Assembly: GCA_944325865.1 (NCBI GenBank)
Contig: CALVBS010000005.1
Coordinates: 124,001-188,000, forward strand
DNA: 64,000 nucleotides
Origin: Candidatus Gastranaerophilales bacterium
GTDB taxonomy: Bacteria; Cyanobacteriota; Vampirovibrionia; Gastranaerophilales; Gastranaerophilaceae
Direction: 5' to 3'
The notes beneath the pieces were generated by a model, which ran no database searches, was not told the DNA's origin, and worked only from the letters and a program-made list of their open reading frames with translations. Both the position numbers and the translations under genes were made by a program. Position 1 is the stretch's first letter. Every line of letters starts with the position of its first letter. Of this stretch, positions 30,763 through 40,147 are shown in pieces.

Positions 30763-31509
30763 CTACGGCAGACATTCCCAGTACCCCTTTGTGCCGTCCC
30801 ACGGGCAGGTATCGGATATTGCATAACTTGCACAGGTTGCTCCGTTGATATCAGAGTTACTTGTTTTAGAACATTTGTTTGCGGTTTCCGCTGTATTATT
30901 GTAATTACAGTTACCCTCTTCGTCACATGAAACTTCTGATTCTCTGTTTGCCGGAACAAGTTTTTCTGTGTCTTTCCATGCAACAAAAATAAAAATATCG
31001 TGCCCCAAAGCATTCGGACCTTTTTTTATCCCGTTAGTATCTATCGTAAACCACAAGCCGTTGCAGTTTTGAAAAATTGATAATGCACTGCCGTCAGGTG
31101 TAATGAATGCTCCATCACCTGCCATATATTGAGAACATTGTGGTATTCCCATAGGGCTTTTTTTGGTAAAATTTTTAGCTGAATTTTTATATTCATTCCG
31201 TTCTTTATCTGAAATTTGTTTTAATTTTTTATACTTTGAGTAAATTTGTTGTGCAAATTCTGAATTTGTATCGACACCGCCGTCAGGTCTGTCTTCTGTA
31301 GGATTTAATACATAGACAGGATAACCCTCTGCTATTACCTGATTAAAAGCATTATACAGGTTTGAATACGCTTTTTTGAACGCAACTTCAAGTGACTTTG
31401 CATTATTCTTTTGAATTAATGCAGGCAAAGTCATTGCCGCGACCACACCGATTATTCCTAATGTTATTAGCACTTCAGCAAGAGTAAATGCTTTGGAAAT
31501 TTTATCCAT
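30763..31509 (-). CDS. Type IV pilin-like protein (prepilin N-terminal methylation site)
   Basis: The N-terminus MDKISKAFTLAEVLITLGII is a class III signal: a short basic leader, then the F/E-containing hydrophobic helix cleaved by prepilin peptidase before Phe. The remaining ~215 residues form a soluble head with several Cys pairs (GIPQCSQYM, FQNCNGLWF, SCDEEGNCNYN) and a Cys-rich tail ending GATCASYAISDTCPW...YWECLP. A GGAGG site precedes the ATG. It is divergent from an XRE regulator whose putative operator lies between them. Its tail is duplicated at 39374-39553. Likely an exported pseudopilin or minor pilin; no pilus assembly genes are in the window. Confidence 0.85.
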   Translation of the reverse strand: MDKISKAFTLAEVLITLGIIGVVAAMTLPALIQKNNAKSLEVAFKKAYSNLYNAFNQVIAEGYPVYVLNPTEDRPDGGVDTNSEFAQQIYSKYKKLKQISDKERNEYKNSAKNFTKKSPMGIPQCSQYMAGDGAFITPDGSALSIFQNCNGLWFTIDTNGIKKGPNALGHDIFIFVAWKDTEKLVPANRESEVSCDEEGNCNYNNTAETANKCSKTSNSDINGATCASYAISDTCPWDGTKGYWECLP

Positions 31510-31618: not shown

Positions 31619-31849
31619 ATGGATAAAAAGGACATTCTAAAAGAATTCGGCAGAAATCTAAAAGCTGAAAGAAATCGGGCTGGATTATCACAGGAACAGC
31701 TTGCGGAAAAAATCGGATTATCATACGGACAGGTAATCGGAACAATCGAGCGGGGGGAAACAAATACATCATTATCTGTTATCGTATCGATTATGAATGC
31801 TCTTGATTTGGATTTTGAAAAATTATTCGACAGAAAATTAATTAAATAA
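31619..31849 (+). CDS. XRE-family transcriptional regulator, 76 aa
   Basis: A single HTH_3 domain: FGRNLKAERNRAGLSQEQLA, recognition helix region GLSYGQVIGTIERGETN, then two closing helices. It is the paralogue of the 71-residue regulator at 1409. No ribosome binding site is visible before the ATG. Its last 12 bases overlap the 3' end of the convergent binding-protein gene. From position it likely controls the divergent prepilin gene and itself. Confidence 0.85.
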   Translation: MDKKDILKEFGRNLKAERNRAGLSQEQLAEKIGLSYGQVIGTIERGETNTSLSVIVSIMNALDLDFEKLFDRKLIK

Positions 31850-38577: not shown

Positions 38578-38931
38578 ATGTTACAGGAATTTTTATTTTC
38601 TAAGATACACAGAGCAACCGTTACTGATGCAAATCTTAACTACGTTGGTTCAATTACCATAGATGAAACATTGATGAATGCCGCAAAAATTAAAGAGTGG
38701 CAAAAAGTTGATATCCTTGATATTAATAACGGTGAAAGATTTCAGACATATGTAATCAAAGGAACACCTGATTCCGGCTGCATTTGCTTAAACGGTGCAG
38801 CAGCCAGAAAAGTTCAACCTGGCGACAAAGTTATAATCGTATCTTATGCCAGCATTGACCCCGACAAAATGGACGGTTATAGACCTACAATAGTTATGGT
38901 TGACGAAAACAACAAAATTATTAAACATTAA
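38578..38931 (+). CDS. panD: Aspartate 1-decarboxylase proenzyme
   Basis: Makes beta-alanine for pantothenate and CoA. The Gly-Ser self-cleavage site is in [10 protein letters not shown], and [17 protein letters not shown] and [16 protein letters not shown] are standard. 117 residues is complete. GAGG precedes the ATG. It is the second pyruvoyl-dependent decarboxylase in a row. It overlaps the convergent XRE gene by 4 bases. Confidence 0.96.
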
Positions 38932-39239
38932 AATTCCATTGATTTTAAAATATTATAAAAGAACTTTACAAGTTTCGGATTTTCATTAAGGGCCTGTGTC
39001 AATTCTTTGTGCATTTGTTCGCAGGAAATATCCTCTACGTAATAAAATTCCCAGACTTTAACCCCGAGAACCATGGAAAGCTTCTGGAGTGTTTCTGTTG
39101 ACGGGGAATATTTTCCCGTCTCAAGGTTACTAAGACTTGGAACCTCTATACCTATCATTTCGGCAAGTTTTTCCTGTGTTATACCTTTATGTTTTCTAAT
39201 TTGTTGGATTTTTTTCCCGACTAATTTCTTTAGTTCCAA
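38928..39239 (-). CDS. XRE-family regulator with C-terminal extension, 103 aa
   Basis: An HTH_3 domain ([20 protein letters not shown], then [18 protein letters not shown]) occupies the first ~65 residues; the rest, beginning [19 protein letters not shown], is a helical tail that may dimerise or sense a signal. It is not a close paralogue of the two 71-76-residue XRE proteins. It is divergent from the 59-residue pilin-tail ORF. Confidence 0.85.
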
Positions 39240-39373
39240 TCTCTTTACCTCTTTTTTATTATGAATTATTTTAAATTTAATTTAATTATGTTTAGCATTA
39301 TTTTTTAGTTTGACAATTAACGTTAAGCAATATAAAATATAAACCGTTACTATAAATTTAAGAGGAATATATA

Positions 39374-39553
39374 ATGTTTAAAATTAAGTCTCTGTTTTTT
39401 ACTAATATCAAGTTTTTTTCATTAGGTTTTGAAGCCAAGCGGCAATCTGCAACAAGTAACTCTGATATCAACGGAGCAACCTGTGCTTCTTACGCCATAT
39501 CCGATACATGTCCGTGGGACGGCACAAAATCATACTGGGAATGCTTGCCTTAA
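39374..39553 (+). CDS. 59-aa ORF carrying a duplicated prepilin tail
   Basis: The last 33 residues (TSNSDINGATCASYAISD...YWECLP) match the end of the prepilin at 30763-31509 with a single substitution (Ser for Gly). At DNA level about ten codons differ, almost all silently, including a Ser codon switched from AGT to TCT. The first ~26 residues (MFKIKSLFFTNIKFFSLGFE) are unrelated to a prepilin signal. An AGAGGA site nine bases before the ATG and a terminator at 39619 suggest a transcribed gene, but a truncated pseudogene or silent cassette is also possible. Confidence 0.6.
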   Translation: MFKIKSLFFTNIKFFSLGFEAKRQSATSNSDINGATCASYAISDTCPWDGTKSYWECLP

Positions 39554-39618: not shown

Positions 39619-39645
39619 AAAAAAGACCGCTCAGGCGGTCTTTTT
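39619..39645. terminator. Bidirectional terminator between pilin-tail ORF and yajQ
   Basis: Stem AAAAGACCGC / GCGGTCTTTT with a 4-base loop. Confidence 0.85.
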
Positions 39646-39646
39646 G

Positions 39647-40147
39647 CTACCTGTAATTGTTAAATTGCAAAGGATAATCGTATTTTTCTTCGTTTCCCCT
39701 AAGCATTTTTATAACAGCCTGCAAATCATCTTTATCCTTGCCGGATACACGCAGCTTGTCACCCTGTATAGAAGTCTGAACTTTAATTTTAGAATCCTTT
39801 ATATCTGCAGCAATTTTTTTAGCAAGCTCCTGAGTCAAACCTTTTTTAAGATTATAAACCTGTCGTACTCTGCCGCCAAGTGCATTTTCAATTCCTTGAG
39901 CATCAAGTATTCTTATACTCAAACCTCTTTTTACAAGTTTAGTCTGCAAAATATCATATATATTTCTCAATTTCATTTCATCTGCAGTCGTTATGGTTAT
40001 TGACTTATCCGCCTCCAAATCAATTTCGGAGTTGGAATCTTTCAAATCAAAGCGGGAAGCTACATCCCTTTTAACCTGATCGACTGCATTAACGAGCTCT
40101 TGCCTGTCAAATTCTGATACAACATCAAAACTGCATTCTTTTGCCAT
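39647..40147 (-). CDS. yajQ: YajQ family cyclic-di-GMP-binding / nucleic-acid-binding protein
   Basis: UPF0234 protein with the signature start CSFDVVSEFDRQELVNAVDQ, then RFDLKDSNSEIDLEADKSIT, GGRVRQVYNLKKGLTQELAK and the C-terminal YDYPLQFNNYR. Some members bind cyclic di-GMP and act as transcription co-regulators; whether this one does is unknown. Length 166 is normal and GGAGAGG precedes the ATG. Confidence 0.94.
   Translation of the reverse strand: MAKECSFDVVSEFDRQELVNAVDQVKRDVASRFDLKDSNSEIDLEADKSITITTADEMKLRNIYDILQTKLVKRGLSIRILDAQGIENALGGRVRQVYNLKKGLTQELAKKIAADIKDSKIKVQTSIQGDKLRVSGKDKDDLQAVIKMLRGNEEKYDYPLQFNNYR

Follow-up and report, generated by a model that had tools for sequence, protein, structure and literature searches.

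The 59-residue open reading frame (ORF) at 39374-39553 (+ strand), whose frame and coordinates were verified, is very probably the leftover of a second full-length prepilin gene, which formed a module with a divergent XRE-type repressor gene between yajQ and panD and has lost its body by internal deletion. This reading is carried by the slot in which the ORF lies, the homology of its promoter and start, the register of its leader, the homology of its tail and the missing body between leader and tail. The ORF lies in a window of 64,000 nucleotides (the whole stretch of DNA that was analysed). A scan of genome contigs found one locus, in Candidatus Scatousia excrementipullorum. This organism has the NCBI lineage Bacteria incertae sedis, and we take it to belong to the Gastranaerophilales/Melainabacteria. 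A literature search found no paper on the ORF or on the prepilin families of this genus.

The slot is bordered on the left by panD (aspartate decarboxylase; 38578-38931, +) and on the right by a yajQ-type gene (DUF520; 39647-40147, -). Divergent to the ORF, and 135 nt from its start, lies the XRE-type repressor gene (38928-39239, -; Pfam HTH_3, 1.6e-16), which has orthologues in the genus. Across 13 genomes of the genus, a full prepilin lies between yajQ and panD in G012, G004 and G009 and the ORF in G000, and nothing lies there in six (G003, G005, G006, G007, G010 and G011); as for the remaining genomes in this survey, G001 ends at yajQ, G008 is rearranged and G002 has no yajQ match. In G012, yajQ, a convergent prepilin, the XRE gene and panD follow one another just as these loci do around the ORF. 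Both features of a remnant of an XRE-module prepilin, the divergent XRE gene and a slot that holds a full prepilin in relatives, are found here. The same module layout recurs at the full-length prepilin at 30763-31509 (-; hereafter prepilin 30763), which has its own divergent XRE-type gene (31619-31849, +), and a divergent XRE gene lies just 5′ of 32 of the 72 prepilin starts read in the genome.

Upstream of the ORF is a sigma-70-like promoter (TTGACA-17-TAAAAT; 39310-39338, +; 11/12 match), the spacer of which contains a TTAACGTTAA palindrome (39317-39326) that we infer to be a possible XRE operator. The ribosome binding site AGAGGA (39361-39366, +) is present, as the first-pass annotation had reported. 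Because promoter and ribosome binding site are both there, the ORF may be transcribed whenever the XRE repressor does not block it. The terminator that had been assigned to the ORF fares less well: a hairpin can be seen by eye 3′ of the ORF (39620-39645), but a terminator scanner reported none, and since the same hairpin lies 3′ of yajQ in G005, where the prepilin is absent, it is best called a yajQ terminator that the ORF shares.

The first eight residues of the ORF, MFKIKSLF (39374-39397, +), are homologous to the starts of prepilins adjoining the orthologous XRE gene. These begin MLQIKLKG (G012), MLGIKFRG (G006, G011), MLKIKSFG (G009) or MLRIKSYG (G004), in each case followed by FTLAEV. The DNA spanning the ORF start gives a pairwise score above all 300 shuffles against each of G012, G009 and G004, and a score that does not exceed all the shuffles against the counterparts in G006 and G011; these two pairs excepted, the 5′ end is homologous to a prepilin start and leader. 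Residues 9-26 form an 18-codon element (39398-39451, +) that is also present in other prepilin leaders, with FT at -18/-17, FS at -12/-11 and A at -1, numbered from the mature F+1 that has been lost. The ORF fits leaders of the same genome best when cut after A26 (24 against 16 for the next, with 11 of 2000 shuffles reaching 24); local, unanchored alignment of the leader was not significant (56/500 shuffles). The first residue after this cut, T27, is the exact onset of homology to the tail of prepilin 30763, so that the leader border and the tail border are each located by separate evidence. In an offset table of 156 prepilin starts, enriched by the partial use of the ORF leader as query, FS stands at -12 in 12/126 and FS and FT occur together in 4/93; among the 72 starts that body homology located in the genome, five were seen by eye to have FS at -12/-11, and two of these (L041 and L127) also have FT at -18/-17. 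A search of the ORF leader against its own genome matched the leader itself alone, and a 30-aa leader query against 383 family genomes gave scattered weak matches (best other E 0.008), with no prepilin-like leader at the 14 loci inspected. The first-pass annotation had seen no prepilin signal in the ORF; FTLAEV is indeed lacking, but an uncleaved prepilin leader does exist there. Neither the register of this leader nor the upstream homology depends on the tail, and both tell, together with the length of the contig (204 kb in a 14-contig genome), against an assembly mis-join or a random open frame, a reading that is suggested by nothing other than the small size of the ORF and is scarcely credible.

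The 3′ part of the ORF consists of 33 prepilin tail codons (39452-39550, +). As had been noted previously, the 33 C-terminal residues encoded here are common to the ORF and prepilin 30763 (tail codons 30766-30864), with a single substitution, S53 for G. Eleven of the 33 codons differ, ten of them synonymously, including Ser TCT against AGT, while the synonymous share expected under neutrality is about 24% (P(>=10/11) = 5e-6). The repeat as a whole extends over 107 nt with 85% identity, and a search of the genome for further copies found this close tail just twice, in the ORF and in prepilin 30763. The silent bias upholds the claim that selection acted at the protein level while the two tails diverged, but this selection is best assigned to full-length parents, because the ORF is a prepilin leader and tail without a body. 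Silent-only differences between a fragment and a gene are no proof of selection on the fragment, since the changes may be older than the deletion and may have been brought together in one block by recombination. The pattern was probably handed down from the full-length stage and, taken alone, is no proof of a new function.

The tail is itself a widespread conserved prepilin end, a possibility that the first-pass annotation had raised against its own reading: matches to the ORF-type tail were found in 18 of 59 genomes searched, and 39 of the 41 matches listed lie in frames of at least 225 aa. A tail-profile search found matches in all 13 genomes of the genus, and an alignment of 29 prepilins has C206, C219, A223, P229, Y236 and W237 invariant in the tail. 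The ORF junction lies just past the C206 position; the ORF therefore has Q24 in place of Cys206, one of the two conserved tail cysteines. With prepilin 30763 as query, 82 matches were found in its own genome, and from these the 72 distinct N-termini were read. The sequence of prepilin 30763 matches solved pilins in the N-terminal helix only, and its model (pLDDT 81.9), used in a fold search with E up to 0.001, had no match in the PDB.

The differences between the two tails are unevenly spread. Over its first 35 nt (39452-39486) the ORF tail is identical to prepilin 30763, and all 14 base changes fall within the last 66 nt (permutation p 0.019 by base and 0.044 by codon); the earlier statement that the tail was not recently copied thus fails for its first third. 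A comparison with G001, a sister species, divides the tail into two blocks. In block 1 (33 nt) the ORF and prepilin 30763 have no differences, while prepilin 30763 and G001 have 6; in block 2 (66 nt) the corresponding counts are 14 and 2. Sorted by the pair that agrees, tail sites are 6:0 in block 1 against 1:13 in block 2 (Fisher p 1.8e-4), a test with small counts and a break point picked after viewing the data. Prepilin 30763 and G001 have a synonymous divergence of 0.53 in the body and of 0.14 in block 2; for the ORF and prepilin 30763 the values are 0 (block 1) and 0.71 (block 2). The G001 orthologue used here is split over two contigs with a 131-nt overlap and is likely to be a single gene. 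Since block 1 is shared with the ORF and block 2 with G001, the tail of prepilin 30763 looks recombinant: either its end came from a G001-like strain after the ORF tail had been copied, or a patch was transferred between prepilin 30763 and the parent of the ORF. Tails thus appear to recombine in this prepilin family. Beyond the prepilin stop codon, the sequences next to prepilin 30763 in the window and in G001 (C142) are unrelated, though the upstream regions are syntenic, which places a break of synteny at the 3′ end of the prepilin.

Recombination of this kind raises the question of whether the ORF serves as a reservoir of tails. Silent pilS cassettes in Neisseria lack a promoter and a start, and are found in several copies near the expressed gene. 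PMC4023411 defines these cassettes and covers this description in part. The ORF resembles them in being a partial pilin gene, the C-terminal part, and a possible recombination partner. The ORF differs in being single copy and unclustered, with its own promoter and start codon, at a distance of 8.6 kb from the intact gene and with flanks that the two loci do not share. The mosaic tail (6:0 against 1:13) favours donation of a tail by the ORF or its parent to the expressed prepilin 30763 through homologous recombination, and gives tail exchange, as first proposed, indirect support. Against this, the mosaic gives no direction of exchange, the last 66 nt of prepilin 30763 could derive from a G001-like strain, the homology between the loci ends at the deletion junction and the stop codon, and the ORF has a ribosome binding site and an ATG of its own; a pilS-like donor is therefore unlikely. 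Another case of a tail apart from its core gene is that of displaced rhs C-terminal tips, which sit just downstream of the intact gene (PMC2935791), whereas the ORF is a separate locus with its own leader.

The product of the ORF is most likely idle, as it has neither a methylation motif nor a convincing signal peptide nor a confident fold. Type IV pilins that lack the hydrophobic N-terminal helix and processing site are neither cleaved by prepilin peptidase nor incorporated into a pilus. The ORF is not a type IV prepilin by these features, lacking both the methylation motif with its cleavage site and the hydrophobic helix, and the peptide would therefore probably be degraded if made. It matches no family in Pfam, NCBIfam or PHROGs, whereas prepilin 30763 matches N_methyl (PF07963) above the cut-off. 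The first-pass annotation had also entertained a separate peptide mimicking the end of the pilin. A small peptide under selection for such mimicry has in its favour the silent-biased divergence and the intact promoter and ribosome binding site. A secreted mimic would need an export signal and a stable fold; hydropathy reaches a maximum of 1.31 over 11 residues, with no convincing signal peptide, and the predicted model has a mean pLDDT of 57.5 and a pTM of 0.32. An invariant cysteine is lost, the 383 family genomes hold no credible relative of the leader, and the 35 nt identical to prepilin 30763 argue for a young copy. A mimic peptide is thus very improbable, and we set this proposal aside.

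We return to the internally deleted prepilin, for which the following course of events is proposed. A single in-frame deletion, running from F+1 of the mature pilin to a point just beyond the first of the conserved tail cysteines, would have fused the leader of 26 residues with the 33 C-terminal ones. The silent-only differences would have been gathered beforehand by full-length tails under selection, and recombination of prepilin tails afterwards could account for the identity with prepilin 30763 over the first 35 nt and the differences from it over the last 66 nt. In its homologous leader, start and tail and its missing body, and in the presence of similar relics in the genus, the ORF is like the prepilin pseudogenes and internally deleted paralogues of large type IV pilin families; it is unlike them in its intact frame and control region, and in a tail that is mosaic with an intact paralogue. 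Some evidence counts against this origin. A strain that retains the undeleted parent prepilin in the ORF slot was not found, the species being represented by a single genome. In orthologous modules elsewhere the tail is of a different type (e.g. CTYKALTEKDYFKNLPK), so the parent of the ORF must also have swapped its body or tail. In addition, this deletion and a second one described below are both in frame, and the promoter and ribosome binding site of the ORF are intact, which is needless in a decaying gene.

The second deletion is found in another mini prepilin of the same genome (L220, 1482-1688; G000:C4 ~247481-247687), in which a 33-residue tail follows directly, and in frame, on a leader and N-terminal helix. 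This gene also belongs to an XRE module; its tail is of another type and, unlike the window ORF, it has kept the methylation motif (PF07963). Ten short-frame tails were read among the roughly 150 rows listed from a larger set: four are frameshifted or stopped (three and one, respectively), three lie at contig ends and three are C-terminal orphans (one in G007 and two in G001). A tail-only prepilin fragment adjoins another gene in G024. Prepilin decay is common in the genus, and these relics are ordinary decay in an unusually large family. It is doubtful that leader-plus-tail mini-prepilins are instead a recurrent product of a recombining family, stored tails from which prepilin 30763 took, or to which it gave, a 35-nt piece shared with the ORF or its parent.

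The genome contains about 70 prepilin genes, many of which are controlled by an XRE repressor or preceded by a poly-G tract. A tract of G10-12 is present 34-166 nt 5′ of 13 of the 72 prepilin starts (L033, L040, L045, L046, L051, L054, L125, L133, L139, L142, L151, L153 and L157, all outside the window), within the leader or a short way ahead of it; the frame between tract and FTLAEV is open, and the typical context is ttTCGGGGGGGGGGca. The G tract (13/72) and the divergent XRE gene (32/72) never occur together (Fisher p 3e-4). This distribution points to two alternative modes of prepilin control, of which phase variation may be one; it is a more interesting lead than the ORF. The findings also point to a reshuffling of starts, leaders and tails within a large prepilin family of gut bacteria of the Scatousia type. 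Leaders also differ in length. The orthologue of prepilin 30763 in G001 (L205/L219, G001:C100) has a leader 18 residues longer, MGNILKISTLSEFFSALSRGNGKSA against MDKISKA (31488-31509 in the window), and an 18-codon leader element appears to come and go among prepilins; in some leaders (L127, L196) the element begins with a second FTLAEV. The leaders of L177, L152, L079 and L084 contain translated repeats (PLPPFTKGG.., GKGGGT.VPEGFS..), which look like in-frame insertions of short palindromic repeats before FTLAEV.
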